DNA from: Embleya scabrispora
GTDB taxonomy: Bacteria; Actinomycetota; Actinomycetes; Streptomycetales; Streptomycetaceae
Assembly: GCF_002024165.1 (NCBI RefSeq)
Contig: NZ_MWQN01000001.1
Coordinates: forward strand, 6,882,001 to 6,946,000
Direction of reading: 5' to 3'
Length of the DNA: 64,000 nucleotides
The position numbers and the translations under genes are program-made. The stretch's first letter is position 1, and each line of letters starts with the position of its first letter. The notes beneath the pieces were generated by a model. It saw nothing but the letters and a program-made list of their open reading frames with translations, did no database searches and had not been told where the DNA came from. Positions 28,020-47,697 of this stretch are shown here, piece after piece.

Positions 28020-28931
28020 TCAGCGGCCGGTCACCAGGACGATCTGGTCCCCTCCGACCTCGGTGGTTGCCGCGTGCGCCAGCAGGCCGGCGAGCCCGGC
28101 CGAGCCCGCCGCGGTGGGATGTACTCCGTGGCGGGCCAGCACCGCCTGGGCGGCGAGCAGTGCGGCGTCGTCGGCGGCATGGACCGCGCCGCCCGAGGCG
28201 GATATCGCGGCCAGGGCCTCGGGGCCGTGTAGGGCGTGCCGGTTGACCAGTGGCTCGTTGTGCTCCGTCGTGACCACCTCGTGGCTCGACAGCGTGCGAT
28301 ACGCGCCCGGCCAGCTCGTCACGATCGGGTTGTTGCCGGGGGAGCCGACGGCGTGCAGGGCCACCGGCCAGGCCAGGAGGCGGGCTTGGCGGTGGGCGGC
28401 GACGATCGTCGTACCGTTGCCGACCGGGATCCAGACAGCGGCCGCGGCGCCGCCCAGTTCACGGTGCAGCACGCGGACCACATGTCCGTGTCCCGCCAGG
28501 ATCGCGTCCGTGCAGGGCCCGTCGACGTTGCCGTCCAGCGCCCCCAACTCGACGGCCAGGCGGTGGGATTCGTCCACGGCGTCCTCATAACCGCCGTGGA
28601 CGAAACGGACGTCGGCCCCGGCGGTCGCGACGGCGGCCCCGCCGTCGCCCCATTCCGCGGGCAGCACCACGGTGGACCGCAGGCCCGCCGCCGCGCACGC
28701 CGTTGCCATCGCCCGCCCGTAGCTGCCGCACGAGCCCACGACGACCCGGTCGTGCCCTTCGGCGACGGCGCGCGCCACGACCGCGCGCGCGGCGGGCTCC
28801 TTGTGACTGCCGGAGGCGTAACGGGACTCGTCCTTGACGAAGACACGAACACCCGGCAGGAGGCCGTCCGCGACGATCAGGGGGGTCAGGTACGGATCGG
28901 TGGGCGGCGCGACGGAGATCGGAGGCAACAA
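28020..28931 (-). CDS. PLP-dependent enzyme of the threonine synthase/serine dehydratase fold
   Basis: A 303-residue fold-type II PLP protein. The Schiff-base Lys lies in YASGSHKEPAA, as in threonine synthase (GSHKDR). The substrate loop reads GSCGSYGRAMA and the phosphate-binding turn PVGNGTT. It is shorter than threonine synthase and the catalytic loop is divergent, so its reaction (beta/gamma-elimination or replacement) is open. It lies 13 bp downstream of the NRPS gene on the same strand and may make a non-proteinogenic precursor such as a diamino acid for it. The start is a TTG with AAGGGA upstream. Confidence 0.72.
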   Translation of the reverse strand: MLPPISVAPPTDPYLTPLIVADGLLPGVRVFVKDESRYASGSHKEPAARAVVARAVAEGHDRVVVGSCGSYGRAMATACAAAGLRSTVVLPAEWGDGGAAVATAGADVRFVHGGYEDAVDESHRLAVELGALDGNVDGPCTDAILAGHGHVVRVLHRELGGAAAAVWIPVGNGTTIVAAHRQARLLAWPVALHAVGSPGNNPIVTSWPGAYRTLSSHEVVTTEHNEPLVNRHALHGPEALAAISASGGAVHAADDAALLAAQAVLARHGVHPTAAGSAGLAGLLAHAATTEVGGDQIVLVTGR

Positions 28932-28944
28932 GGAGGTGTTCCCT

Positions 28945-31900
28945 TCACCGGGTGCGGGCGGAGAGCAGTTCGTCGGCTTCGCGCTGCAGGTCGTCGCGCG
29001 TGCCGATCTCGGCGGGCGGTATCGCGTCGGGCAGTTCGTCCTCGATCAGTCGCAGCCGGTCGTCGAACCAGCCCCGGACGGACCAGGCCAGTTGCAGCAC
29101 TCCGCTCAGGACGATCAGCAGGGCCAGGCCCCGTCCCGGACCCTCGGATTCCAGGAGCGGCTGGACGAAGCGCTCGGCCAGGGGCCCGACCACGAGGTAA
29201 CCCAGTGGCATCGTCAACATCATCAGGGTGATGAACAGGGACAGCACCCGGCCCTGCAGTTCGAACCCGACCTTGCTCTGCACGATCGCGATCCAATGAC
29301 CCTCGGCCAGGGATTCACCGAACCCCACGAGGAACATCCCGGCCACGATCAGCGCCGGAACGGTGGAGATCCCGACCAGGATCATCGCGAAACTGCCGAT
29401 GCCCATCGCGATGAGCATCCCGTGACTGCGCCGGGCGGTACCGCCCCACAGACCCATCAGGACACTGCCGACGATCCCGCCGACGCCGCCGGCACCCAGC
29501 GCCAGACCCAACACCGAATCCGACTGCTCCGCCAGCAACATCGGCGTGATGACGGCGAAGCCCAGGGTGTAGAAGACGTGGTCGACGACGAAGAACCGAA
29601 GCGCCGCGCGCAGGCCGGGCCGGCGGGTGATGTAGCGCCAGCCGTTGCGGATCTCCGCGCCGAAGGTCTCCTCGCGTACCCGGAACATCAGGTTCGGGAA
29701 GCGCACGAGAAGCAGCGTGAGTGCCCCGATCGCGAAGGTGCCCGTGTCGACGAGGAGCACGCCGTCGATGCCGATCGGGTCGATCAGCGCGGCACCGAGC
29801 ATGGGGGAGAACACCAGCCCCACGCCGACCCCGAGTTGCCCGATCCCGGCGGCGTGGCCGAGATAGCGCTTGGGTACGAGCTGCGCGACCGCCGCGAGGT
29901 AGGCCGGCCGCTGGAACGCTCCGGCCACCGACGTCACCGACACGACCAGGTAGACGTGCCACAGGTGCAGGCCGTCACTGTGCATGAGGACGACCAGGGC
30001 CGCCATCGAGAGCCCGGCCGCGGTGTCGCTCGCCAACATCACCCTGCGGCGGTCCCACCGGTCGGCGACGGCCCCGGCGACCGGCCCCACGAGGATGCCG
30101 GGGAGCAGTCCGATCGCGCTCACCACCGCGAAGGAGGTGAGCGAGCCGGTCCGGTCCAGCACCCAGATGCTCAGTACCAGTGTGCTCAGCCCGCTGCCCA
30201 TCATCGACAGGAGCTGGCCCAACGCGACCAGCGCGAACTTGCGCAGATCGGGCGCCGTCCCCGCCGCCGGGCCCCGGGCCCCGGCGGGGAAGCGCACGAT
30301 CGGCGAAGCCGGCGCCCGCACGGTCGACGCGGCGTTCGGCGAAACCGTCGCCCGCGACGCGCCGGAGACGACCCCCACCAAAGCCTCCGCCAGCGGCCCC
30401 GCATGGCTCTTGAGGAAGAAGTGCCCCGCCCGCGGCAACACGGCAAGGCCCAGGTCGCCCTCGGTGAAGTGCCGCCACTCCTGGTGGCGTTCCTGATAAT
30501 GCTCGGTGACCCGGTCCCGGGCGCCGACGACCGTCAGCACCGGCGCCCGCAGCGGACGGTACGGCCGCCGGTACGCCGCCGTGAAGTACTCCTCGGCGTC
30601 GCGCGCGTCGTGCCGGACGTTGCGCAGTACGAAGGCCTCCTGCTCCTCGTCGTCCAGATCGGTGAAGCCGCCGCGCGCGCGGAGGTAGGCCAGATACTCA
30701 CGGTCGGAGGTGAAACGGTCCACCGGCACATGCCGGTAGATCCAGTCGAAGAACCGTCCGGGCAGCCGGGCGGTCGGGAATCCCGCCCCGAGCGCGACCC
30801 CGGCCAGCGATACCCCCGCCGCCTCGGCGCGCCGGGCCACCTCCACCGTGAGTGCGACGCCGAGGCAGTGCCCGTACAGGAGGACCGGGCCCTCGATCAT
30901 GCGCATCTCGTCGACGATGCGGTCCGAGACGACGGCGATCGGCTCCAATTCCTCGTCCGGCCTGGATCGGTCGTGGCCCGGCAACTCCACCGCCCGCAAC
31001 GCCCAGTTCGCCGGGAGCGCGTCGGCGAGCGGCTGATAGGCGACGGCGCTGCCCCCGGAGTAGGGCACCGCCACGACGGTGTGCCCGCCGGTCGCCGGGT
31101 CGGCGTCCGTCGCGGTGAGCCGCTGCAGCAACCACTGTTCGGCGGGCCCGTCCGCCGACCGCGCGTCGAGATGCGCGGCCAGTCGACGGATGGTCGCGTA
31201 CCGGTAGAACTCGACCAGGCTGGGCGCCGGTTCGACGCGCCGAACGACCCTGAGCGCCGAGAACGAGTCGCCGCCGAGGTCGAAGAAGCCGTCGTCGATG
31301 CCGGGTTCGGGAACCCCGAGAACCTCCGCCCAGATCGCCGCGATCCGCTTCTCGGTATCGGTCCGAGCCGGCGTCCCGGCGGATTCGGGACCCGTCCCGG
31401 CCGGTGCGGGCAGTGCGCGCCGGTCCAGTTTTCCGTTCGGCGTCGACGGCAGCGCGGGCAGTGTGACGATACGGGTGGGGACCATGTGCGCCGGCAGACG
31501 CGCGGCGAGCATCTCGCGGAAGGCGGCCTCGTCGGCCTCCGCCCCATCACGGGTCACCACGTAGCCGACGAGCCGGCTGGTGCCGCCGGGCGGCCCGTGT
31601 ACGGCCACCGCGCATGCCGCCACCTGCGCCGGCGCACCGAGTCGGGCCTCGATCTCGCCGAGTTCGATCCGGTACCCGTTGATCTTGACCTGGTCGTCGA
31701 GCCTGCCGAGGAAGTCGACCGTGCCGTCGCGGTGGAAACGCGCCGAGTCGCCGGTGCGGTACATCCGGGCGCCGGGCGCGGTAACGAACGGATCGCACAC
31801 GAACCGCTCGGCGGTCAGCTCGGGCCGGTCGTGATAGCCGGGTACGACGCCGAGCCCGCCCAGGTACAGTTCGCCGACCACGCCCGCGGGGACCGGCCGG

Positions 31901-34900
31901 CGGTGCGCGTCGAGGACGTAGACCCGGTTGTTCGGGAAGGGCCGCCCGATCGGCAACGGCGCGTCGTCGGCGAGGTGTTCGACCGAACCCTCGAACAGCA
32001 CGTTGTCGACGGTGGCCTCGGTGACACCGTACGAGTTGACGACACGGTTGCCCGGACCGACGAGGCGTTTCGCCAGCGCGTACTCCTTGACGTGCCACTT
32101 CTCGCCGCCGCCGATCAGCAGCCGGACGAACGACAGGTCCGCCCCGCTGCGCTCGGTGTGGTCGAGGAGGGCGCGCAGCACCGCGGGCACCAGTTCGGTG
32201 CAGGCTACGTGCTCGGTCTTCATCAGCGCGTGGAGATCGGCCGGGTCCAGCAGCGTCTCGCGCGGGGCGACCACCAGCCGGCCGCCGCTGAGCTGCGCCC
32301 GGAGCGTTTCGCCCACGAACATGTCGAAGGAGAAGCTGGCCGCCTGAAGGTAGGTCCACTCCGGCCGCAGCCGGTACGCCTGCCGCCACATGCCGGCCGC
32401 GTGCACGAGGTTGCCGTGCGTGACCACGACTCCCTTGGGCCTGCCGGTGGATCCCGAGGTGTAGATGACATACGCGGGATCGTCGGCCGAGTTGCACAGG
32501 GGCGGATCGCGGTCGTCCTCGGAAAGTCCTTCGAGCGGCCCTTCGAGCGGTCCTTCGGCGAGGTAGTCCCGGTTGATCACCACCGTCGCGCCGCTGTCCG
32601 CCAGCATGTATTCCAGCCGGTCGCTCGGGTAGGCCGGATCCAGCGGCACATAGGCGCCGCCCGACTTGAGCACCGCCCACATCGCGGTGAAGAGCTCGAC
32701 GCCGCGATCCAGGTCGATCGCCACCCGGTGGCCCGGCCGAACCCCCTCCCGGCGCAGTCTGCGGGCGAGCCGGTTGGCCCGGCGGTTCAACTCCCCGTAT
32801 CCCAGGGTGACGTCGCCGACGGTCAGCGCGGGCGCGTCGGGCGTGGCCGCGGCGTGGCGTTCGAACAGCTGGTGTACGGCGACGGCATCCGGTATCGGGG
32901 CGACGACGTCGTTCCAGTCCTCCACGATGCGGCGATGCTCGCGGTCGGTGAGCATCGGCAGCCGGGTGACCGGCGTGCTCGCCCCGCCGATCGCCGCGTC
33001 GAGCAGCGTCAGAAGGTGGTCGACGAACGCCTCGACGCGTGCCCCGTCGAAGAGTTCGGCGGCATAGTCCGCGTTCAACACCGCGCCGTCGGCGGGGAAG
33101 TCGAGCCCGATCGCGAGGTCGACCATGGTCGCGGCCGGCGCCGACTCACCGGCGTAGCACAGGAGTCGGTCGTCCGCCGTCGGGGTGTTGTGCACGGTCA
33201 GCATCACCGGGCTCAGCCGTTTGGCCCCGCCGGGCCGCGCCAGCGCGTCCACCAGATCCGGCAGCGCGAGCCGCCCGTGGTCGAGGTCGCTCAACACCGC
33301 GTCCCGCACCCGCGCGACGAGCTGTGCGAACGACGGATCGCCGGACACATCGCCGCGCAGTGGCAGCACGTTCAACGCGGGCCCGATCAACGAGGCCGAC
33401 TCGGCGCTCGACCGCCCGGCGACCGGTGCGAGCACCGTGACGTCCGTCCGCCCGGTGTACCGCCGCAGGACGACCTGGAGCCCGGCCAGGAGCACCATGA
33501 ACAGGCTCGCCCGCTGTTCGCCGGCATAGGAACGCAGCCGGTCCAGGAGATCGGGGCCGAGGGGACGGCTGATGCGGCCGGCGGCGTACGAGGGCGCGGC
33601 CGGGCGAGGCCGGTCGGTGGGCAGTTCCGCATCGAGATCGGCGCCGTCGAACCGCTCCCGCCAGTACGAGACCAGCGCCGCGTCGGCCTTCGCGTCGGCG
33701 CTGCGGGCGGCGAGATCGGGCACGGGGACGGCCGGGGGCAGCCCGGCGCCGGTGATCGGATCCGCACCGTCGCGCACGGCCCGGTACAGGGCGGCGAGTT
33801 CCCGCCCCAGCACACCCGCCGACCAACCGTCGAAAGCGAGGTGATGCACGATCAGCACCAGCGCGTCGCCGTTCAGGAAGGCGTGTGCGATCGGGCCGTG
33901 CCGAACGTCGATGCCCGCGCGATCCGGCTCGCCCAGCGTCAGCGGGATCCGCGCCGCGGGTTCGACGACCATGCTCGGCTCGACGCCGTCATCGGGAAAG
34001 CGCGCCCGCAACAGCGGGTGCCTGCGCGAGAGTTCCGCGAGGGCCGTGGTCAATGCCGCGACATCCACCGGCTCTGTCCAGCGGTAGCGGATTCCCAGCG
34101 TGTACACGGGCAGATCGGCACACAGCTGCTCGGCGATCCAATAGTCGCGCTGCATCGGACTCAGCCGGTGCGGAACCCCCTCGGCCAGTGTGGCGACGGG
34201 GGGCCGGGCCACCGCGCCCTTCCCACCGCCGATCAGCCCCGCCAGCGCGGCGACGGTCGGATCCGCGTACCAGCGGGTGAGCGTCAGCTCCGCGCCGTGC
34301 CGCAACCGCAGGGCGGCGATGAGCCGTACGGCGTCCAGGGAATCGCCGCCGAGGGTAAGGAAATCGTCGGCCGCGCCCGTCACGGGGACGCCGAGAATCT
34401 CCTCCATCAGCGCGCCCGCGCCGCGCTCCGCCGCCGAGCCGGCGACGTCCGGAGCGTCCTGCCGCGGCGACGGCACCGTCGCCGCGAGCGCCGCCTTGTC
34501 GATCTTCCCCTGCGGGTTCAGCGGAAACCGCCGGTGTCCGACCAGCGCGGCGGGCACGAGGTGTGCGGGCACCAGTGCGGCGAGCGCGGCCCGAACCCTC
34601 GCCAGGTCGGTCGTGGCCTCGGTGACGACGTGCCCGATCAGCTTGGCGCGGCCGGTGTGCTCGTCGACCAGGACCACGGCGTCGGTGATGCCGTCGAGCG
34701 TGCGCAGCGTCGCCTCGACCTCCGCCGGTTCGACCCGGTGGCCCCGGATCTTCACCTGGTCGTCGAGCCGCCCCAGGAACTCCAACTGCCCGTCGGCGGA
34801 ACGGCGTACGCGGTCGCCGGTGCGATACTCGCGGCCCCGCCCCGGCGTCGTCACGAACCGCTCGGCGGTCAGCTCGGGACGGTTCAGATAGCCGTCGACC

Positions 34901-35892
34901 ACGCCGATGCCGCCGATCAGCAGCTCGTCGTCGGCGCCGATCCGGCAGGTCACGCCCGGGTGCGGAAGGCCGATCGGGACCACGTCCCCCGACCACTCGG
35001 TCACATCCGCCGCCGTGGCGCCGACGGTGGTCTCGGTGGGGCCGTACGTGTTGAACAGCCGCGCGGCGCCGCCCACCGCCACCTGCCAGCGGCGTACCGC
35101 GTCGGGCCGCGCGGTCTCGCCGCCGATGATCACGCACCGTACGGCGGCCGGGAGTTCGGTCTCGCCCCGGTCCAGGGCCGCGACCAGTTGGTGCCAGTAC
35201 GCGGTCGGCAGGTCCAGGACGGTGACCCCGAGCGCGTCACAGCGATCGAAGAACAGGTCCGGCCTGCTGATCATGTCGTCGTCGCGCAGGACGAGGGTGG
35301 CGCCCCGCAGCAGCGGGCAGAAGATCTCCTCGACGCTGGTGTCGAAGCTCAACGAGGCGAACTGCAGGATCCGATCGCCCGCCGCGAAGCCGAAGCGGTC
35401 CGCGAACACCGCCGTGAAATCGCGGAGTTGCCTGCGCCCGACCAGGACGCCCTTCGGCCGACCGGTCGAACCGGAGGTGAAGATGACGTACGCGGGATCC
35501 CGTCGGCGCACGCTCTCGGCCAGCGGCAGCACACCGTCGGCCGTGATCAGCGCGCGCGGCCGGGTCTCCTCGATCATCAGGTCCAGGCGGGCCGCCGGAT
35601 ACACCGGGTCGAGGGGTACGTACCCGGCCCCGGCGCGCAGCACCGCCAGGATCGCCACGATGGCGTCCCGGCCGCGCGGCAGCCGGATCCCGACGAGGTC
35701 GCCCGGTCGTACGCCCGCGTCCGCCAGCCGGTCCGCCAGGTCGGCGACCAGGGCGAACAAGGTCGCGTAGTCCAGTTCGCCGTGCGCGTCGGCCAGTGCC
35801 GGCGCGTGCGGCGCCCGGGCGGCCTGCGTGGCCAGGGACGACCAGACGTCGCCGTCGACGGCGGCGGGCGACGTGTCGTGGGTTCGGGTCAC
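28945..35892 (-). CDS. Nonribosomal peptide synthetase fused to an MFS transporter (A-T-C-A-T-TE-MFS)
   Basis: A 2315-residue protein in one uninterrupted frame. Order: A1 (~20-470), carrier T1 (GGDS, Ser518), condensation domain (HHLAFDG at 683-689), A2 (~1010-1495), T2 (GGDS, Ser1543), thioesterase (~1605-1850; Cys1676 in GHCLG, Asp1793, His1824), then a complete MFS_3/EntS-like transporter (~1883-2280, ~12 helices, loop motif ADRWDRRR). Pocket residues read by eye: A1 D-T-E-D-I-G-T-V-G-K; A2 D-M-G-E-I-G-S-V-D-K, close to the ornithine code. It should join two amino acids, probably basic, release them by the Cys thioesterase and perhaps export the product directly. GTG at 35892 has GAGGAG 6 nt upstream; a GTG at 35913 overlapping the aldo/keto reductase stop is the alternative. 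Confidence 0.9.
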   Translation of the reverse strand: MTRTHDTSPAAVDGDVWSSLATQAARAPHAPALADAHGELDYATLFALVADLADRLADAGVRPGDLVGIRLPRGRDAIVAILAVLRAGAGYVPLDPVYPAARLDLMIEETRPRALITADGVLPLAESVRRRDPAYVIFTSGSTGRPKGVLVGRRQLRDFTAVFADRFGFAAGDRILQFASLSFDTSVEEIFCPLLRGATLVLRDDDMISRPDLFFDRCDALGVTVLDLPTAYWHQLVAALDRGETELPAAVRCVIIGGETARPDAVRRWQVAVGGAARLFNTYGPTETTVGATAADVTEWSGDVVPIGLPHPGVTCRIGADDELLIGGIGVVDGYLNRPELTAERFVTTPGRGREYRTGDRVRRSADGQLEFLGRLDDQVKIRGHRVEPAEVEATLRTLDGITDAVVLVDEHTGRAKLIGHVVTEATTDLARVRAALAALVPAHLVPAALVGHRRFPLNPQGKIDKAALAATVPSPRQDAPDVAGSAAERGAGALMEEILGVPVTGAADDFLTLGGDSLDAVRLIAALRLRHGAELTLTRWYADPTVAALAGLIGGGKGAVARPPVATLAEGVPHRLSPMQRDYWIAEQLCADLPVYTLGIRYRWTEPVDVAALTTALAELSRRHPLLRARFPDDGVEPSMVVEPAARIPLTLGEPDRAGIDVRHGPIAHAFLNGDALVLIVHHLAFDGWSAGVLGRELAALYRAVRDGADPITGAGLPPAVPVPDLAARSADAKADAALVSYWRERFDGADLDAELPTDRPRPAAPSYAAGRISRPLGPDLLDRLRSYAGEQRASLFMVLLAGLQVVLRRYTGRTDVTVLAPVAGRSSAESASLIGPALNVLPLRGDVSGDPSFAQLVARVRDAVLSDLDHGRLALPDLVDALARPGGAKRLSPVMLTVHNTPTADDRLLCYAGESAPAATMVDLAIGLDFPADGAVLNADYAAELFDGARVEAFVDHLLTLLDAAIGGASTPVTRLPMLTDREHRRIVEDWNDVVAPIPDAVAVHQLFERHAAATPDAPALTVGDVTLGYGELNRRANRLARRLRREGVRPGHRVAIDLDRGVELFTAMWAVLKSGGAYVPLDPAYPSDRLEYMLADSGATVVINRDYLAEGPLEGPLEGLSEDDRDPPLCNSADDPAYVIYTSGSTGRPKGVVVTHGNLVHAAGMWRQAYRLRPEWTYLQAASFSFDMFVGETLRAQLSGGRLVVAPRETLLDPADLHALMKTEHVACTELVPAVLRALLDHTERSGADLSFVRLLIGGGEKWHVKEYALAKRLVGPGNRVVNSYGVTEATVDNVLFEGSVEHLADDAPLPIGRPFPNNRVYVLDAHRRPVPAGVVGELYLGGLGVVPGYHDRPELTAERFVCDPFVTAPGARMYRTGDSARFHRDGTVDFLGRLDDQVKINGYRIELGEIEARLGAPAQVAACAVAVHGPPGGTSRLVGYVVTRDGAEADEAAFREMLAARLPAHMVPTRIVTLPALPSTPNGKLDRRALPAPAGTGPESAGTPARTDTEKRIAAIWAEVLGVPEPGIDDGFFDLGGDSFSALRVVRRVEPAPSLVEFYRYATIRRLAAHLDARSADGPAEQWLLQRLTATDADPATGGHTVVAVPYSGGSAVAYQPLADALPANWALRAVELPGHDRSRPDEELEPIAVVSDRIVDEMRMIEGPVLLYGHCLGVALTVEVARRAEAAGVSLAGVALGAGFPTARLPGRFFDWIYRHVPVDRFTSDREYLAYLRARGGFTDLDDEEQEAFVLRNVRHDARDAEEYFTAAYRRPYRPLRAPVLTVVGARDRVTEHYQERHQEWRHFTEGDLGLAVLPRAGHFFLKSHAGPLAEALVGVVSGASRATVSPNAASTVRAPASPIVRFPAGARGPAAGTAPDLRKFALVALGQLLSMMGSGLSTLVLSIWVLDRTGSLTSFAVVSAIGLLPGILVGPVAGAVADRWDRRRVMLASDTAAGLSMAALVVLMHSDGLHLWHVYLVVSVTSVAGAFQRPAYLAAVAQLVPKRYLGHAAGIGQLGVGVGLVFSPMLGAALIDPIGIDGVLLVDTGTFAIGALTLLLVRFPNLMFRVREETFGAEIRNGWRYITRRPGLRAALRFFVVDHVFYTLGFAVITPMLLAEQSDSVLGLALGAGGVGGIVGSVLMGLWGGTARRSHGMLIAMGIGSFAMILVGISTVPALIVAGMFLVGFGESLAEGHWIAIVQSKVGFELQGRVLSLFITLMMLTMPLGYLVVGPLAERFVQPLLESEGPGRGLALLIVLSGVLQLAWSVRGWFDDRLRLIEDELPDAIPPAEIGTRDDLQREADELLSARTR

Positions 35893-35909: not shown

Positions 35910-36920
35910 TCACATCGACCAGTGCGTCGGCTGCCGGTCCCAGCGGTGGGCGCGCAGGGCTTCGAGCAGTTCCGCCGGCAGTGGCGTCGATCCGGACACG
36001 CGCAGGTTCGAGCGCACGTGCTCGGGGCGGCGCATGCCGGGGATGACGACGGAGACGGCGGGGTGGTGCAGTGCGAAACGCAGCGCCAGTTCCGGCAGGG
36101 TGTGGCCGGCGGGGACGAGGCCGCGCAGCGCGTCCACACGTTCGATGGTGGGCGGCAGGTTCTCCGGCCCGAAGTAGACGGCTCGCCAGTCCTCGGGCGG
36201 GAATACGGTGTCGGCGCTCAGGTTCCCGGTCAGCGAACCCTCGTCGAAGGGCACCCTGGCGATGATCGAGATGTCCTCCTCGATGGCACGCGGGAACAGT
36301 TCGTCCTCGGGGGCCTGGTCGAAGATGTTGTAGATGACCTGGATCGCGTCGACCAGCCCGGTGTCGAGCGCGGCGAAGCAGTTCGTCGGCTCCCAGCGGT
36401 TGACGCTGATGCCGAATCCGTCGATCAGATCCTGCTCCTTGAGCAGGGTGACGGCCTTTTGCCAGGCGGGATCCGCGGCCCAGCGGTCCTCCCAGACGTG
36501 GAGTTGGAGAAGGTCGATCCTGTCGACGCCGAGGTTGTCCAGGCTGCGCCGCGTGTAGTCGAGGATGTGGTCGAGGGGGAAGACGTCCTCGAGAGTGTCC
36601 TGCGGGCGCGGAGGCCATTCGCGGTTGAGCGGGGGAACCTTGGTGGCCAGCCGGATCCCGGCGTCGGGGCGGCGCTCGCGCAGTTCGCCGAGCAGGTTCT
36701 CGGACTTGCCCCGTCCGTAGGCCCAGGCCGTGTCGAAGAACGTGCATCCCATGTCCACGGCGAGGTCGAGGGCGTCCGGGGCGATGTCGTAGTCCCAGCC
36801 GGTGAATCCGCCCGGGCCGCCGCCGATTCCCCACATGCCGTAGCCGACCTCGCCGACCCGCCAGCCCAGCCGTCCCATGGCGCGCCGGCGCATCGGCGTC
36901 TGTTGCTCGTCGACGACCAT
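35910..36920 (-). CDS. Aldo/keto reductase
   Basis: A 336-residue NAD(P)H-dependent oxidoreductase of the AKR superfamily. The tetrad is visible: Asp and Tyr in FFDTAWAYGRGKSE, Lys in LATKVPP, His in LLQLHVWED. The NADPH-binding end includes IPGMRRPEHVRSN. The ATG at 36920 has AAGGAG 6 nt upstream. It lies between the A-T-reductase gene and the large NRPS gene with minimal spacing, so it is probably part of the pathway, for instance reducing the aldehyde released by the reductase domain to an alcohol. Confidence 0.87.
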   Translation of the reverse strand: MVVDEQQTPMRRRAMGRLGWRVGEVGYGMWGIGGGPGGFTGWDYDIAPDALDLAVDMGCTFFDTAWAYGRGKSENLLGELRERRPDAGIRLATKVPPLNREWPPRPQDTLEDVFPLDHILDYTRRSLDNLGVDRIDLLQLHVWEDRWAADPAWQKAVTLLKEQDLIDGFGISVNRWEPTNCFAALDTGLVDAIQVIYNIFDQAPEDELFPRAIEEDISIIARVPFDEGSLTGNLSADTVFPPEDWRAVYFGPENLPPTIERVDALRGLVPAGHTLPELALRFALHHPAVSVVIPGMRRPEHVRSNLRVSGSTPLPAELLEALRAHRWDRQPTHWSM

Positions 36921-36933
36921 CGGTCGCTCCTTG

Positions 36934-39900
36934 TCATGCACCGACAGGCTCCTTCGGGCGGGTGTGCGATGTGGTGAACAGTGCGGGGTTGTCCTGGAGA
37001 AGGTTTTCGAGCACCGCGCGGATGCCCGCCTCGTCGTCGCCGCAGCCGGCGGCGCGGTGCTCGAAGACGGCGAGCAGTGCGCCCAGTTCGGCGTCCCCGG
37101 CCGCCGCGGCGGTGCGCAGCCGGGACAGGAAGAGCGAACAGGGCACCCGCTGTGCACGCGCGCCGGCCAGGTCGTCGAAGTGCACGCTGCCGGGGCTGAA
37201 GAGGTGCGCGGCACGCCCGCGCGGCGCCGGGTCCCGGATCGCGTCGACGATGGCCCGCGCGATCGTGTCGAGCGGGCTGTAGTCCGACCGGATCGTCGCC
37301 CGGGGCACCGTGCCCAGCCGCTCGAAGGCGGTGAGCAGCAGATGGGTCAGCGCGGTCGGGTTGGGTACGGCGGCGGCATCGGCGGCCGGCATGACCTCGC
37401 CCAGGCGCAGCACCGTCACCGGCAGGTCGTCGGCGGCCAGGACGAGCCGCTCGGCCACCCACTTCGACAGGCTGTATCCGCTCAACGGCGGGGTCACGGC
37501 GGTGATGTCCACGTCTGCGGGCACCGGTTGGCCGACGGCCACCGCGTGGTCGTACAGGACGCCGAGCGTGGAGATGTAGTGCAGGGGGATGCCGCCGGCC
37601 GCACGGGCGAGGCGAATGATCTCCGCCGTGCCCAGCACGTTGGGCTCACGGTGCATGCGGTAGTCGTACAGGAGGTTGACCAGGGCGCCGCCGTGCACGA
37701 TCAGGTCGCACTCCTCGGCGAGCCGGTGCTGGCGGGTGTCCGTCAGTCCGAGGCCGGGGAGGGCCAGGTCTGCGGCGACCGCGGTGATTCGTCCGGCATA
37801 CCCGGCGTGGTTCAGGCCCTGCGCGGACAGGGCGTCCAGGAGACGTTGCCGCGCGTGGGAGTCGTTGTCCCCGCGGGTCAGGCAGAGCACCGACAGGTCG
37901 GTCTGTTCGAGGAGTTCGTGCAGCAGGCGCGTACCGACGAACCCCGTCGCGCCGGTGAGCAACACCGTGCGCGCGGCCCGGCTTCGCCGCGCGGGACCAA
38001 GCGCCGGGATCGCCACGAGGCCGGCGAGGTCGGCGGCGACCAGGTCGGCCGAGGACGGTATGCGATCGTGCCCGCGCCGTGCGATCAGCCGGCCCAGGCC
38101 ACTCGCCGTCGGATGCTCGACGACGTCCCGGACGCCGATGTCCGTGCCGAACCGGTCGCTCAACTCGACCACGACCGCAACCGCCTGCAACGAGTTTCCG
38201 CCCGCGGCGAAGAAGTCGTCGTCGGCCGCGAAGTCCGGGCGCCGCAGGGCGCTTCGGAAGATGGCCAGTACCGGATCGGCGCCTCCGGCGGAGGGCGGCG
38301 AGTCGGGCCGCTCCACCCGGGCGGCCAACCGGCGCCGATCGATCTTTCCCGCCTCGGTCAGCGGCATGTCGGGCACGATCACCACGCGTTGCGGGATGCC
38401 GGCGCGAGGGAGCCGGGCCCGCAGGTGGGCAAGCACCTGCTCCTCGCCGGCCGTTCCGGTGATGACGAGCAACAGTTCACGCGCGCGGCTCTCGGTGGAT
38501 CCGACGACCAGTGCGACGGCCTGCCGAACTCCCTTGCAGGCCAGGCCCACGTTCTCGATCTCGCCCGGCTCGAGGCGTACCCCACCGACCTTGATCTGAT
38601 GATCGACGCGCCCGCCGAAGTGGAAGCGACCCTCGGCGTCGAGGTGCCCGAGGTCGCCGGTGCGATACATCCGGCCGAACGGCGGGGAATCGAAGAAGCG
38701 TCGCGCGGTGCGATGCGGGTCGCCGTGGTACCCGGCGCCCACACAGGCGCCGCCGATGACGATCTCCCCGGTCGCTCCGGGCGGCAGGGGCCGCCCGTCG
38801 ACGTCGACGACGACGGCGACGCAGTTGTCGATCGGCCGCCCCAGCGGGATGTCGTCGCCGTCCTCGGCGGTCACCTCGTGAAAGATCATCCCGATGGACG
38901 CCTCCGAGGGCCCGTACGCGTTGCTGACGCGCAATCCAGGCAGCAACTCCCGCAGAGCCCGCACGTCCTGCGGATTGATCTGCTCGCCACCGACCACCAG
39001 GTGCCGCAGCGAGCGCAATCGCTCGACCGTCGCCGGCCGCCGTTCCAACAGGGTCAACAACGCGCCCAGTACCGCCGGTACGAAGTCGGTGACCGTCACG
39101 GCGTGGGTGTCGATGAGGTCGATGGTGTGCTGCAGGTCGAGATGCTCACCGGCGGTGGGAACCACCGTGGCCCCGCCGGTGGTCAGCGGCCAGAACAGCT
39201 GCCAGAAAGCCGAATCGAAGGTGTGCCGGGTGTTCTGCAGCACCACCTCGCGGTCCGGCGGGGGACCGAACCAGCGATCCATGAAGGCGAGTCGGTTCGC
39301 CAGGCCCCCGTGCAGGTTGACCGCGCACTGGGGCGTTCCGGTCGTGCCGGAGGTGTAGACGCCGTAGACGACGTCGTGCGGCGCCGGTTCCGGTGTTGCG
39401 TCTCCGAAAATGAACTGCGTTGCTGTGTCCCGAGTTCGACGACGAACGCCCGGTCGCGGTGGGAGGCGGGGACGACGGCCGGATCGGTGCACAACACCAC
39501 GGGCGCGTCGAGCAGATCGAGGATGTGCGCGATGCGCACGGCGGGCCAGCGGGGGTCGATCGGTACATAGCCGATCCCGGCCATCATCGCGGCGGCCCAG
39601 GACACCGGCAGGGCGAGGCCGTCCGCGACGAGGATGGGTACCAATGTGCCGGTTCTCGGTGCGGCGGCGCGGATCCGGGCGGCCAGCGTGCCGGCGTGCG
39701 CGAGGAACTGCCGGTAGGTCAGCGTCGCGTCGGCGGCGTACACCGCCACGGCATCCGGGAGGGACCGGCCGACGGCCAGAATCCGTTCCGGGACACTGCG
39801 GTAGGGGCCGTGGTCCACCCGTGTCCCCGCGAGCGGGCCCAGCACCGCCGACTCGGTGTCCGGGGACAGCGCGGCGACCCCACCGAGGTCGAGGTCCGGG

Positions 39901-40235
39901 TCGGGATCGGCCAGCACCGCGCCCAGCAGTTCGGCGTGCATCTCGGAGACCGCCGCAGCGGCCCGCTCCCAGACATCGCCGGGAGGACATCGCAGTTCCA
40001 CCGACAGCCAGCCGGCGGGGTCGATCCGTACCCGCACGGTCGGCCCGGCCGTGTCGTCGGCCGCGTCGTGCGTGTGAACGGCGACCGTCTTCGGGTCGAT
40101 CGCGGTCGCGTCGAGCGCCAGTTCCCGTCCCAGCCGTCGGGCGACTTCCGCCAACGTCCGGACGGCGGCGTCCGTTAAAGAGATGTCGGGCCTGAGAAGG
40201 ACGGGATGCCGGTGGCCCCGCCAACCGAGGTTCAT
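36934..40235 (-). CDS. NRPS-like A-T-thioester reductase, reading frame broken once
   Basis: Homology runs from MNLGWRGHRHP (ATG at 40235) through a ~170-residue head and the first half of an adenylation domain, then continues in another frame from about 39395-39440 with VVYGVYTSGTTG onward; a single-base difference separates the halves. The second half holds the A core (pocket D-S-W-D-V-G-A-I-G-K), a carrier domain (AAGGNS) and a C-terminal reductase of the SDR type (LLTGATGFVGTRL, YSLSKWVAE). Such proteins release a bound amino acid as an aldehyde using NADPH. It is first in the minus-strand cluster. Either the gene is inactivated or the assembly has a one-base error. Confidence 0.75.
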
Positions 40236-40237
40236 GG

Positions 40238-40359: not shown

Positions 40360-41238
40360 ATGGACATCGGTGTGGCGGCAACCACGGCACGAGCGAGCGC
40401 ACACAGCGCCGGCACCAGATCCGGCGTGCGCATCCGGATGTTGGATTCGACAGCGAGCGGTCACGCCTGCGCCCGCTTTCTCTGCGAGGTCTGGCAGACC
40501 GAGCCGGACCGCCCGCCGCTCGCCGGTGACGTCGTCAAGGCGATGGCCGACGCGGGCAGTTACGTGGCGGGAGCGTTCGACGAGGCGGACGGCGACGCCC
40601 GGCTGCTCGGGGCATGCGTCGGCCTCTGGGGTCCACCGGGCCGGCCCGGAATGCACAGCCACATCGCCGGCGTCCACGTCGGCGCGCGCGGACGCGACGT
40701 CGGCTACGCGCTCAAACTGGACCAGCGGGCGCACGCCCTGGAACACGGCGTCGACCGCATCACCTGGACCTTCGACCCACTCGTCGCCCGCAACGCCCAC
40801 TTCAACCTCCACAAACTCGGCGGCACGGCGGACACGTACCTGCCCGACTACTACGGCCCCCTCTCGGACGGACTCAACGCCGCCGACGAGTCGGATCGAC
40901 TGATGCTGCGCTGGGATCTGCGCGACGAAAGAGTCGTGGCAGCCTGCGACGAGGACGACGAACCGACGCCCACTCCCGCTTCGGCCGGGCCGACCCGCCG
41001 AACCCTTCTCGACATCGACGGCGACCGGCCGGTGACCCGGCAGGCGGGGGAGGGGACGGTCCTGGTCGCCATACCGCCCGACATCGACCTTCTCCGGGCC
41101 CGGCAACCGTCCGCGGCCCGTGACTGGCGCCTGGCCCTGCGGGACACCCTGGGCAACCTGTTGGCCGACGGCGCCCGGCTGGTCGACTTCGACCGCGCGG
41201 CATGCGCTTACGTACTCACCCGAGGCGAGGGACGATGA
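40360..41238 (+). CDS. GNAT-superfamily acyltransferase-like protein (COG3375 type)
   Basis: A 292-residue protein. The N-terminal ~190 residues resemble the predicted GNAT acetyltransferases of COG3375, with the stretch GMHSHIAGVHVGARGRDVGYALKLDQRAHAL as the acyl-CoA-binding region and ITWTFDPLVARNAHFNLHKLG downstream. The C-terminus adds a region ending in VLTRGEGR. Members of this group are commonly coupled to N-succinylamino acid racemases, as here: the next gene starts in an ATGA overlap. It may add the acyl (succinyl) group. CATACT at 40346-40351 places transcription close to the ATG, so the mRNA may be leaderless. Divergent from the NRPS cluster. Confidence 0.72.
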   Translation: MDIGVAATTARASAHSAGTRSGVRIRMLDSTASGHACARFLCEVWQTEPDRPPLAGDVVKAMADAGSYVAGAFDEADGDARLLGACVGLWGPPGRPGMHSHIAGVHVGARGRDVGYALKLDQRAHALEHGVDRITWTFDPLVARNAHFNLHKLGGTADTYLPDYYGPLSDGLNAADESDRLMLRWDLRDERVVAACDEDDEPTPTPASAGPTRRTLLDIDGDRPVTRQAGEGTVLVAIPPDIDLLRARQPSAARDWRLALRDTLGNLLADGARLVDFDRAACAYVLTRGEGR

Positions 41239-42374
41239 GGATCGAGCGCGTCCGCCTTCGACACATCGCCCTACCGCTGGTCAGCCCCTTCCGCACGTCC
41301 CTGGGCATCGAATACGAACGCTCGGCGCTCGTGGTGCAGGTGACCACACCGGACGCCGAAGGATGGGGGGAGTGCGTCGCCGGAGCCGAACCCGACTACT
41401 CCTCGGAATACGTCGAGGGCGCCCAGGACGTCCTCCTGCGCCACCTGGTGCCCCGACTGCTGTCGGCCGAGTCCGTGACCGCCCACACGGTGGCACCCCT
41501 GCTCGCTGCGGTCAAAGGCCACCGCATGGCGAAGGCCGCCCTCGAAATGGCGGTCCTGGACGCCGAACTGCGCTCCCGGGGCCTGTCGTTCGCGGCCGGT
41601 CTGGGCGCCGTCGCCGACCGCGTCCCCAGCGGGGTGTCGGTCGGCATCATGGACTCGGTCCCGGAACTGATCGACGCCGTGGCGGACTATCTGGCGCAGG
41701 GCTACCGACGCGTCAAACTGAAAATCGAACCCGGCTGGGACATCGCGCCGGTCCGCGCGGTCCGCGAACGCTTCGGCGACGACACCCTCATGCAAGTCGA
41801 CGCGAACGCCGCCTACACCCGTGCCGACACCCGACACCTCGCCCGACTCGACGCCTTCGACCTCCTGCTGATCGAACAACCGCTCGACGAAGAAGACCTG
41901 CTCGGACACGCCGCCCTCGCCCGTACGCTGCGCACCCCGATCTGCCTCGACGAATCCGTGGTCTCGGCCCGCTCCGCCGCCGACGCCATCGCGCTGGGCG
42001 CCTGCCACATCGTCAACATCAAACCAGGCCGCGTCGGCGGCTACCTCGAGGCCCGCCGAATCCACGACGTCTGCGCCGCCGCCGGCATCCCGGTGTGGTG
42101 CGGCGGAATGCTCGAAACCGGCCTCGGCCGAGCCGGCAACACGGCACTGGCCGCACTACCGAACTTCACCCTGCCGGGAGACGTCTCCGCCTCGAACCGC
42201 TACTTCGCCACCGACATCACAGAGCCCTTCACGCTGCAAGACGGCCACCTGACAGTCCCCCAAGGCCCCGGCCTCGGCGTCACACCCATCCCGGCGGCAC
42301 TGGACGAGGCCACCACGACAACAACCGAACTCCACCGAAGCCGACCGGGGACAGGTCGCCGCGGGAGTCCTTGA
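41235..42374 (+). CDS. N-succinylamino acid racemase / o-succinylbenzoate synthase-like enolase
   Basis: A 379-residue enolase-superfamily enzyme of the muconate-lactonising subgroup. Catalytic and metal residues are visible in order: KLK (acid/base Lys pair), VDANAAY (metal Asp), IEQPL (metal Glu), LDES (metal Asp), NIKPGRVGG (second catalytic Lys). Paired with a COG3375 acyltransferase instead of menaquinone genes, it is more likely an N-acylamino acid racemase than a menC. The pair would convert D- and L-forms of an amino acid via N-acyl intermediates and could supply or recycle an NRPS substrate. The expected deacylase is not present in the window. Confidence 0.83.
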   Translation: MRIERVRLRHIALPLVSPFRTSLGIEYERSALVVQVTTPDAEGWGECVAGAEPDYSSEYVEGAQDVLLRHLVPRLLSAESVTAHTVAPLLAAVKGHRMAKAALEMAVLDAELRSRGLSFAAGLGAVADRVPSGVSVGIMDSVPELIDAVADYLAQGYRRVKLKIEPGWDIAPVRAVRERFGDDTLMQVDANAAYTRADTRHLARLDAFDLLLIEQPLDEEDLLGHAALARTLRTPICLDESVVSARSAADAIALGACHIVNIKPGRVGGYLEARRIHDVCAAAGIPVWCGGMLETGLGRAGNTALAALPNFTLPGDVSASNRYFATDITEPFTLQDGHLTVPQGPGLGVTPIPAALDEATTTTTELHRSRPGTGRRGSP

Positions 42375-44610: not shown

Positions 44611-47013
44611 TCAGGCTCTCGCCCCGAACGCCGGTGAATCCGGCGCCGGCGAACCGGGCCGAGGCCCGAGCCACGCGGGGAACCGTGCCGATCTCCGTGC
44701 GGAGTCGTCCGTCGGGGGCACCGCCCACCGGTACACCGCTCCCTCGCGGCCGGGACTGGTGACCAACAGCGACCCGTCCGGCGAGAACGCCACCGCGACG
44801 ACTCGGCCGGTGTGCCCGATGGGGGCACCGACCGGGCGACCGGTGGCCGGATCCCACAACCGCACGGTCTCGTCGGCGCCGCCGGTGACCAACAGCGACC
44901 CGCCCGGCGAGAACACCACCACCCGGATCGTATCGGTGTGGCCGTCGAGGGGGCCGCCGACCGGGCGACCGGTGACCGGGTCCCACAACCGCACGGTCTT
45001 GTCGACGCCGCCGGTGGCCAGCAGCGATCCGTCCGGGGAGAACGCCGCCGCGAACACTTCGCCGGTGTGGCCGATGAGGGGATCGCCGACCGGACGTCGC
45101 GCGGCCGGGCGCCACAAGCGCACGATCTCGTCGGTGCCGCAGGCGGCCAACACCGACCCGTCCGGGGAGAACGCCACCGCAAGGACCCGCCCTCGGTGGT
45201 CGAGGGGATCACCGACCGGGCGACCGGTGGCCGGGTCCCACAATCGCAGCGTCTCGTGGCCGCCGTCGTCGCATCCGGTCGCGAGCAGAGCCCCATCCGG
45301 GGAGAAGGCCACCGCGAAGACTCCGCCGGGGTGGCGGAGGCGTCCGCTCCGACGACCGGTGGCCGGTTCCCACAACCGCACGGTCTTGTCGGCGCCGCAG
45401 GTGGCCAGCAGCGATCCGTCCGGGGAGAACGCCGCCGCGAACACTTCGCCGGTGTGGCCGATGAGGGGATCGCCGACCGGACGTCGCGTGGCCGGTTCCC
45501 ACAACCGCACGGTCTCGTCGGCGCCGCCCGTGACCAGCACCGACCCGTCCGGGGAGAACGCCAGCGCCGGAACCCGGCCACGATGGCCGGTCAGCGGCAG
45601 CAACGGCACCACCCCGGCGGCGACGACATCGGCGCAGAACGCCCGCTCGGCGAGCGTCGCGGACAGCGTGCGCGGGGCGAGGCGGGCGTACAACCGCACC
45701 GACCTGTCATCGCCGCCGGACGCCAGCAGCGCGCCGTCCGGCGAGAACGCCACCGCGAAGACCGCACCGGCATGGCCGGCCAGGGGATTGCCGACCAAGC
45801 GGCCGGTGGCAAGGTCCCACAATCGCACGGCGCCGTCCTCGCCGCCGGAGGCGAGCAGCGCACCGTCCGGGGAGAACGCCACCGCGAGGACCGTGCCGGC
45901 ATGGCCGGTCAGGCCGTCGCCCACGGGGCGTCGGGCGGCCGGGTCCCACAGCCGTACCACCCCGTCGTAGCCGCCGGAGGCCAGCAGCGCACCGTCAGGA
46001 GAGAACGCCAGCGCCCGGACCACGCCCGTGTGGCCGGTGAGGGGTTCTCCGATCTGTTCCAGGGTGACCGGGTCCCACAGTTGCACCCGGTTTTTGTAGC
46101 CGCAGGTGGCCAGCAGCGACCCGTCCGGGGAGAACACGACCGCGAAGACCCGTCCGGAGCGTCCGGTGAACAGCCTGTCGACGTGGCGTCGGGTGTCCGG
46201 GTCCCACCGGAGCACCGACCCGTCGGTGCCACCGGAGGCCAGCAGCGACCCGTCGGGAGAGAACGCCACGGCGAGGATCGTTCCGGCATGGCCCCCGGCG
46301 AGGGGGCCGCCGACCGGGCGTCGGGCGGCCGGGTCCCACAGCCGCACCGACCCCTCGGTGCCACCGGAGGCCAGCAGCGACCCGTTCGAGGAGAACGCCA
46401 AAGCGACGATCCGCCCGGGGTGGGCGGTCAGGGGATCGCCGACCGGGCGGCCGGTGTCCGGGTTCGAGAACCGCACTTCGCCGTCCTCGCCGCCGGTGGC
46501 CAGCAGCGACCCGTCCGGGGAGAATACGACCGCCCGGACCGCGCCGAGGTGGCCGGTGAGGGGGGCGCCGGCCGGGGCGTAGCGGGCCGGGAGAGGGGGC
46601 AGCCGAGGCAGCGGTACGGCCGCGTTCGCGCCCCCGACCTCCCCGTTGTCCTCGTCGCCTGCACGGCCGCGCACCGGACCGGGGGTCGGTCGGTCGGCCA
46701 TCGAGAGGGCATCGCGGTCCGCCAGCCACAACTCGTGGAAGCGCAGCACCTCCCCCTCCACGTCCGGACGGCGTACCGAGGCGGCCGCCAAGTGCCGCAC
46801 GACGGCCTCCAAGCGCGGCCAGTCCGGGACCGACCGCCCGTTCAGCAACTGGCCCAGCGTCTCGCGGCTGACCGGCGCCGGAAGGCTGTCGTCCCCGGTG
46901 ATCGCCTTGGCGGCCACGTGCGTGCTGGGCCGCCCCGCATCGGTATACAGCCGGTGCAGCGCCACGATCAGGTCCCGCCGCGCCCCCGGGGGCACCCGCT
47001 CCTCGCCCGGCAT
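44611..47013 (-). CDS. WD40 protein with 14 repeats and helical N-terminus
   Basis: An 800-residue protein. The N-terminal ~110 residues are helical with VSRETLGQLLNGRSVPDWPRLEAVVRHL, which resembles the XRE-like heads of actinobacterial WD40 and NTPase signalling proteins. Fourteen WD40 repeats follow (FSPDGSLLATGG...VRLWDPATGRPVG...), enough for two seven-blade propellers; an irregular insert sits after blade 7. Repeats are so alike that 88 bp of blade DNA are identical at 45014-45101 and 45401-45488. It is probably a scaffold for protein-protein contacts. The ATG at 47013 is chosen; a GTG at 47025 is possible. Confidence 0.85.
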   Translation of the reverse strand: MPGEERVPPGARRDLIVALHRLYTDAGRPSTHVAAKAITGDDSLPAPVSRETLGQLLNGRSVPDWPRLEAVVRHLAAASVRRPDVEGEVLRFHELWLADRDALSMADRPTPGPVRGRAGDEDNGEVGGANAAVPLPRLPPLPARYAPAGAPLTGHLGAVRAVVFSPDGSLLATGGEDGEVRFSNPDTGRPVGDPLTAHPGRIVALAFSSNGSLLASGGTEGSVRLWDPAARRPVGGPLAGGHAGTILAVAFSPDGSLLASGGTDGSVLRWDPDTRRHVDRLFTGRSGRVFAVVFSPDGSLLATCGYKNRVQLWDPVTLEQIGEPLTGHTGVVRALAFSPDGALLASGGYDGVVRLWDPAARRPVGDGLTGHAGTVLAVAFSPDGALLASGGEDGAVRLWDLATGRLVGNPLAGHAGAVFAVAFSPDGALLASGGDDRSVRLYARLAPRTLSATLAERAFCADVVAAGVVPLLPLTGHRGRVPALAFSPDGSVLVTGGADETVRLWEPATRRPVGDPLIGHTGEVFAAAFSPDGSLLATCGADKTVRLWEPATGRRSGRLRHPGGVFAVAFSPDGALLATGCDDGGHETLRLWDPATGRPVGDPLDHRGRVLAVAFSPDGSVLAACGTDEIVRLWRPAARRPVGDPLIGHTGEVFAAAFSPDGSLLATGGVDKTVRLWDPVTGRPVGGPLDGHTDTIRVVVFSPGGSLLVTGGADETVRLWDPATGRPVGAPIGHTGRVVAVAFSPDGSLLVTSPGREGAVYRWAVPPTDDSARRSARFPAWLGPRPGSPAPDSPAFGARA
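45014..45101. repeat. 88-bp exact repeat inside the WD40 gene, copy 1
   Basis: Identical to 45401-45488. The offset of 387 bp equals three 129-bp blade units, so this is a recent duplication or gene conversion among blades. Confidence 0.85.
45401..45488. repeat. 88-bp exact repeat inside the WD40 gene, copy 2
   Basis: Identical to 45014-45101, in direct orientation and in the same reading frame. Confidence 0.85.
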
Positions 47014-47256
47014 CGCGATCGCCACACGCCCCCCGCCCCGCGCACACGCGCCCCATCGCAAGCAGCCGCCCAGATCTGCCAAGTCTCCTCCCCGGCAACG
47101 ACGTTCGCAGGCCAACCGCCGACAAGAACCGCCCGAACCCGGCGGCCTCCCGCCCATGATCGGCAGGACGTGACCGAAACCGGTCCGGCGCAGTGACCAG
47201 GGCCGACGGTGGAAACACGGGGCAACAAGCCCCGCCGACACCCACCGGGGGACGCC

Positions 47257-47565
47257 ATGACCAGCCCGCTCACCACCACCGCCGCGCCGGTCCTGGCGCC
47301 CCTGTTCTCCGCCGCCGTGAAGGCGCCCGCATGGATCACCTTGCCGCTGTTCGCCCTGGGCGCGGCGGCGGTGATCGTGCACCTGGTCCTGCAACTGCGC
47401 GCCGCACGCGAGCAGGAACGCGCCACCCGGCACGCCGAACAACGCCGGGCCGCCCTCGAAGACGAAGCCGTCCACGCCGCCCGCACCATCACCGACGCCA
47501 CCGAACGCACAGCCGTCCTCGTCGACCTCGCCGCCCTGCGCACCAGACCCCCCGACCCGCCGTAG
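47257..47565 (+). CDS. Small single-pass membrane protein
   Basis: A 102-residue protein: a short polar head, one hydrophobic helix (AWITLPLFALGAAAVIVHLVLQL, about residues 25-47) and a charged helical tail (RAAREQERATRHAEQRRAALEDEAV region) likely to form a coiled coil. GGGGGA precedes the ATG at 47257. It is divergent from the WD40 gene with about 240 bp between. No family is recognised; it could be a membrane partner of the WD40 protein, which is only a guess from position. Confidence 0.65.
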   Translation: MTSPLTTTAAPVLAPLFSAAVKAPAWITLPLFALGAAAVIVHLVLQLRAAREQERATRHAEQRRAALEDEAVHAARTITDATERTAVLVDLAALRTRPPDPP

Positions 47566-47697
47566 ACGACCTGTCGAATCGCGCAGCGTCGTGGTGCTCG
47601 TGCCCCGTCTGTCGACGTCACCCGAGTGGATCCCGACGCCGGCACGCTGCCGAGCCGGACGGCGGAGCGAGGCTCCTCGCATCTTCGCCTCGGCCGG

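Follow-up and report, generated by a model that had tools for sequence, protein, structure and literature searches.

A peptide synthetase joined in one open frame to a major facilitator transporter in Embleya scabrispora, and the clade of thioesterase–transporter fusions to which it belongs

The stretch of Embleya scabrispora DNA analysed here (64,000 nucleotides, hereafter the window) carries a peptide synthetase (NRPS) gene whose thioesterase (TE) domain is followed, in the same open frame, by a complete transporter of the major facilitator superfamily (MFS). This NRPS–exporter fusion is real, old and maintained in actinomycetes, and it is not a singular oddity, being a member of a clade of at least 47 TE–MFS fusions. 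From the sequence and from structural modelling, the protein is probably a two-module NRPS anchored in the membrane, with its own MFS as the exporter of what it makes.

Architecture of the fusion gene and its operon

The gene is an open frame of 2315 codons, free of stops, on the minus strand. A preliminary description of this DNA had read it as A-T-C-A-T-TE (A, adenylation; T, carrier; C, condensation) followed by a 12-helix MFS, and this order is borne out by translation, by Pfam and by AlphaFold2. The Pfam matches comprise a first AMP-binding domain, Condensation (577-989), a second AMP-binding domain (1010-1354), AMP-binding_C (1413-1488), two PP-binding stretches (the best at 1516-1575), Thioesterase (1605-1836) and then the MFS, matched either as MFS_1 (1889-2231, 112 bits against a gathering score of 33.4) or as MFS_3 (1886-2242). 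The A, T and C domains are those of a modular NRPS with intact catalytic signatures, namely the carrier serines Ser518 and Ser1543 and the C-domain HHxxxDG at 683. The likely start is GTG 35892, preceded at good spacing by GAGGAG. Another possible start, GTG 35913, shares bases with the stop codon of the aldo/keto reductase gene upstream, and the two genes may therefore be translationally coupled. The features of the gene and of its operon are as follows (window coordinates, all on the minus strand).

28020-28931, minus: PLP-dependent enzyme of the PALP/threonine-synthase-like family, a family that accompanies the NRPS in 21 loci
28945-35892, minus: NRPS–MFS fusion gene, A1-T1-C-A2-T2-TE-MFS (translation, Pfam, Shine-Dalgarno (SD) motif GAGGAG before GTG 35892)
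28948-29082, minus: cytoplasmic C-terminal tail, residues 2271-2315, conserved in the alignment, core LPDA
29083-30243, minus: MFS transporter domain, residues 1884-2270, 12 predicted transmembrane helices (TM), motif-A-like ADRWDRRR between TM2 and TM3
30244-30357, minus: TE–MFS linker, residues 1846-1883, disordered, near-neutral, with no SD-linked start
30358-31095, minus: TE domain, residues 1600-1845, Cys1676-Asp1793-His1824, ObiF1-like
31153-31359, minus: T2 carrier domain, residues 1512-1580, Ser1543
31393-32895, minus: A2 adenylation domain, residues 1000-1500, code DMGEIGSVD
32938-34179, minus: C condensation domain, residues 572-985, HHLAFDG at 683
34213-34434, minus: T1 carrier domain, residues 487-560, Ser518 in GGDS
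34453-35853, minus: A1 adenylation domain, residues 14-480, nine-residue code DTEDIGTVG
35910-36941, minus: aldo/keto reductase, abutting or overlapping the start of the NRPS gene and conserved in 8 loci
36934-40236, minus: A-T-reductase gene, in the same operon as the fusion, frame broken near 39430

The conserved operon around the fusion gene is, together with the type of TE described below, a point absent from the preliminary description. The order A-T-reductase, aldo/keto reductase, NRPS–MFS and PALP enzyme is found in most Embleya, Amycolatopsis, Pseudonocardia and Kineosporia loci, and in Micromonospora, Nocardia and others the NRPS–MFS is accompanied by the PALP enzyme and a fatty-acid-desaturase-like protein. 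The A-T-reductase gene of the window is one base short near 39430 when compared with three Embleya relatives and is intact (1112 aa) in E. hyalina (L027); this frameshift may mean that the pathway is impaired in the source strain, or it may be an assembly error. Beyond the operon lies a divergent gene pair (40426-42374, plus strand). The first gene, which 8 loci conserve beside the operon, encodes a 270-aa protein with no Pfam match; the second encodes a member of the enolase superfamily that exceeds the cut-off for o-succinylbenzoate synthase (TIGR01928). The TIGR01928 family takes in N-acylamino acid racemases. Further on, beyond a 2OG-Fe(II)-oxygenase-like gene, there is a 1023-aa frame with WD40 repeats (44611-47682, minus strand). 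A role in a defence system was considered and rejected, PADLOC giving no match.

The one-base deletion in the nearby A-T-reductase gene and the prior odds are what could be said for regarding the fused frame itself as an artefact of assembly or annotation. Against it, the same open junction recurs across more than a dozen genera in independent genomes, and in all four Embleya genomes, which leaves that explanation a vanishingly small probability and upholds the earlier claim that the fusion is no annotation artefact. A different alternative is that one chain is made and then split, by proteolysis in the linker or through a second start, so that the NRPS and the exporter act separately. The linker is disordered, nearly unconstrained and variable in length (16-135 aa among relatives, about 30-40 residues in the window protein), and a start codon with an SD-like motif lies near the MFS in 6 of the 47 fused genes, as such splitting would predict. 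However, neither the window gene nor 41 of the 47 fused genes has an internal start with an SD-like motif ahead of the MFS, the linker has none of the sequence conservation expected of a protease site, and no split gene was found within the fused clade, where sampling by TE–MFS queries favours fused members and could miss split ones; splitting is thus rather unlikely.

Selection has acted on both ends of the protein. Between close relatives, dN/dS for the linker is 0.6-1.1, whereas the TE gives about 0.09-0.13 and the MFS 0.025-0.117; the MFS is thus under strong purifying selection, with values equal to or below those of the catalytic domains, and the low ratios of TE and MFS beside a near-neutral linker indicate that selection maintains both ends, with the linker as a spacer only. 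The evolutionary distances of TE and MFS are also correlated (r = 0.965; reached in 0 of 1000 permutations), a correlation also expected from simple vertical inheritance of one gene.

The cysteine thioesterase and the putative product

The catalytic triad of the TE (Cys1676, Asp1793 and His1824) is intact. By sequence, the solved structure closest to the TE is that of ObiF1 (131 bits, E 3.5e-37; the next best reaches 81 bits), and the fold neighbours of the domain in Foldseek are ObiF1, SulM (second entry), BorB and RifR. In the alignment, Cys, Asp and His match Cys1146, Asp1254 and His1284 of ObiF1, whose catalytic roles have been described (PMC6668435), and the motif YGHC is common to both. 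The domain thus has the cysteine nucleophile, the aspartate in the later, RifR-like position and the histidine of an ObiF-type cysteine TE. The cysteine is invariant in 26 aligned sequences and is the nucleophile in 43 of the 47 fused TEs, with serine in one sub-branch of four. This YGHS sub-branch (L060, L061, L067 and L068) provides a natural Cys/Ser comparison inside the fusion clade.

Two characterised systems can be compared with this domain. The obafluorin NRPS ObiF1 (PDB 6N8E; PMC6668435) likewise has a terminal cysteine TE with the nucleophile in YGHC, the aspartate on the later strand and the histidine, but it carries an MbtH-like domain after the TE where the fusion has its transporter; its β-lactone chemistry requires a β-hydroxy residue, and the resemblance of the fusion TE to it is one of sequence and predicted fold. 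The TE of the sulfazecin NRPS SulM (PDB 8W2D; PMC11298585) is also a cysteine enzyme of the same triad geometry, but no MFS fusion has been described for SulM and its Gln-Cys-Asn motif is replaced by His-Cys-Leu in the fusion. A SulM-type β-lactam TE was rejected on this criterion (PMC11298585). Cysteine TEs of such triad geometry form a β-lactone in the case of ObiF and a β-lactam in that of SulM (PMC11298585), an analogy which suggests that the fusion TE may also release its product by ring formation.

The adenylation codes vary little across the actinomycete loci. By the GrsA specificity positions and published code tables, the A1 code DTEDIGTVG appears to be Lys/β-Lys-like and the A2 code DMGEIGSVD Orn-like. 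The neighbouring genes of other loci fit lysine-type diamino acids, since the Actinoplanes loci hold a PLP decarboxylase of Orn/DAP type and another PALP enzyme nearby, and the Plantactinospora loci additional DapD-like and aminotransferase genes. Our working guess for the product is a dibasic dipeptide, perhaps cyclised.

The transporter domain and the coupling of synthesis to export

Prediction with AlphaFold2 for T2-TE-MFS, using an alignment of 26 relatives (mean pLDDT 78.9, pTM 0.76), gives a carrier domain, an alpha/beta hydrolase, a disordered segment at about 1845-1877 (pLDDT below 50) and twelve membrane helices. The helices had been marked for checking in the preliminary description, and both the model and the loop charges agree with twelve in an N-in topology, for which lysines and arginines in the MFS loops number 28 inside against 3 outside. 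Both ends of the MFS are accordingly predicted to lie in the cytoplasm, which would place the NRPS on the cytoplasmic face, as expected from the earlier proposal that the assembly line is tied to the membrane. Such anchoring is well supported by sequence and model. The domain shows the characters of the superfamily, namely a PF07690 match above the gathering score, twelve helices and a motif-A-like loop between TM2 and TM3 (GPVAGAVADRWDRRR). Its earlier labelling as MFS_3/EntS-like is right for MFS_3 but loose for EntS, which the domain resembles only weakly: PRK10489 gives 87.8 bits against a cut-off of 324, and an EntS orthologue was therefore rejected. The best NCBIfam model is TIGR00900 (H+ antiporter), with 208 bits, below its cut-off of 319.6. 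EntS and the TIGR00900 antiporters share the MFS_1/MFS_3 type, but they are not joined to a synthetase and the fusion MFS stays below both curated cut-offs. Among solved structures no homologue of the MFS was found by sequence at E up to 1, and the fold neighbours in Foldseek are the export-type MFS VMAT2, VMAT1 and MdfA, which are distant at about 15% identity (about 0.64-0.77 in TM-score by target). Because of these neighbours and of TIGR00900 as the closest profile, the MFS is likely an exporter.

We infer that the fused MFS exports the product of its own NRPS. In the favoured reading, the C-terminal MFS exporter would fix the two-module NRPS permanently in the cytoplasmic membrane, and the synthetase would couple two amino acids, probably basic (Lys/β-Lys-like and Orn-like); the TE cysteine would accept the dipeptide and then release it, possibly through ring closure, and the fused MFS, working as a proton-coupled exporter, would pump out the product freed beside the membrane. 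The advantage of such an arrangement would be a fixed 1:1 dosage and export at the place where the product is released, and would apply to a product that is harmful or lost when kept inside. A stronger version, in which TE and MFS form a release-and-export unit, the cysteine TE closing a strained or reactive ring and the MFS taking the product directly, must be held doubtful; were such a hand-over true, free product would be nearly absent from the cytoplasm and the product would be channelled from NRPS to transporter.

Two other functions of the MFS have to be weighed. It might export something else, as a self-resistance or general drug pump or for a siderophore, and serve mainly as a membrane anchor for the NRPS. 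The closest solved folds are indeed broad-specificity drug and amine antiporters, and in Gloeocapsa, Nostoc and Pseudanabaena related unfused MFS lie within siderophore loci; however, the pairing with a single TE type has been strict and of long standing, and there are unfused relatives next to NRPS genes, both of which speak for the NRPS product as the cargo, and other cargo appears improbable. A role of the MFS in import, or as a degenerate anchor that transports nothing, is very unlikely: transport direction cannot be read from sequence, but motif A, all twelve helices and a very low dN/dS have been retained beyond the needs of an anchor, and the family likeness is to antiporters and efflux proteins. 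Export of the NRPS product thus remains the favoured function.

Distribution, origin and novelty of the fusion

The fusion gene is present in four of four Embleya genomes, and the TE–MFS part of the window protein is 96% identical to that of E. hyalina and 92% to that of E. scabrispora. TE and MFS in one open frame were found at 25 loci, with identity down to about 42-60%, in 13 actinomycete genera (Embleya, Streptomyces, Amycolatopsis, Pseudonocardia, Kineosporia, Micromonospora, Catenuloplanes, Nocardia, Planotetraspora, Nonomuraea, Actinoplanes/Paractinoplanes, Plantactinospora and Sphaerisporangium) and in Dyella; most of these loci have the complete A-T-C-A-T-TE-MFS order. Three further NRPS-TE-MFS fusions occur in the source genome, in different clusters, and when the TE–MFS of one of them was used as the query in a survey of 297 sampled Actinomycetes genomes, 18 matched, at least 14 of them with TE and MFS in one frame. 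Fusions were also found in pSCL4 of Streptomyces clavuligerus and in two genomes of the gammaproteobacterial Dyella family; no relatives were found in viral contigs.

A tree of 75 MFS domains places the 47 that are fused, among them that of the window protein with its TE in the same open frame, in one clade (support 100/99), and a single change between the unfused and fused states suffices in 100% of the bootstrap trees, which fits a single fusion event. Some of the nearest unfused MFS, in Trichormus variabilis and on two Nostoc plasmids, are encoded 15, 33 or 1 bp downstream of TE-ended NRPS genes, so that a related MFS directly follows the TE as in the fusion, but as two genes 1-33 bp apart; more distant unfused relatives lie within NRPS or siderophore loci. 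The cyanobacterial TEs gave no match to the window TE in the search for TE relatives, and the fused TE therefore need not derive from that type. Adjacent genes for an NRPS and a following exporter were probably joined once; the fusion would then have been retained, multiplied by duplication, passed on by transfer and recruited to several assembly lines, its TE and MFS remaining together.

The synthetase–exporter fusion is a new arrangement of known parts. Among open-licence full texts, mostly judged by title or abstract, no discussion of a bacterial NRPS–MFS fusion was found. Database names combining "NRPS/MFS transporter" may exist, and annotators may already have met the architecture. Two fungal models also end in TE-MFS within one predicted protein, a Verticillium PKS (KS-AT-ACP-ACP-TE-MFS; PMC9495618) and an Ophiocordyceps gene model (...P-C-A-P-Te-MFS...; PMC11057048), both listed, in a table or in running text, without analysis; likened here by description only, they differ from the fusion in being fungal and, in Verticillium, a PKS, and they may be gene-model joins. 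A physical coupling of release to export is unusual, but its parts are familiar and its function putative. It bears on where in the cell an NRPS is located and on how its product reaches the exporter without harm to the producer, since in the fused clade evolution has settled synthetase and pump as one chain. The clade is a natural test object, in which the linker can be cut, the pump inactivated and the members compared. For genome mining, TE-MFS serves as a marker of the terminal module and identifies the exporter; it is also a possible engineering part by which export might be added to other assembly lines. Given the relation to ObiF-type cysteine TEs, strained-ring products are something definite to search for.

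Several variants were seen among the related loci. In Amycolatopsis oliviviridis (L015, 8756-12106, plus strand) only part of A2 and T-TE-MFS are present, without A1-T1-C and the upstream operon genes, apparently as a deletion remnant. In Streptosporangium (L039/L040, 5350-11464, plus strand) a reductase-ended NRPS is accompanied by a related MFS in an overlapping, separate frame. An 872-aa frame of Jiangella muralis (L046, 8525-11140, plus strand) has its MFS after about 485 residues with no Pfam match, and could represent an unrelated fusion or simply a frame that is too long. In the Dyella family (L082, genome G995), TE-MFS closes an open frame of 4796 codons, a much larger assembly line. 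Finally, in one actinomycete family (L071, 301-4104, minus strand, and L072) a methyltransferase follows TE-MFS in frame, giving the triple fusion T-TE-MFS-MT.
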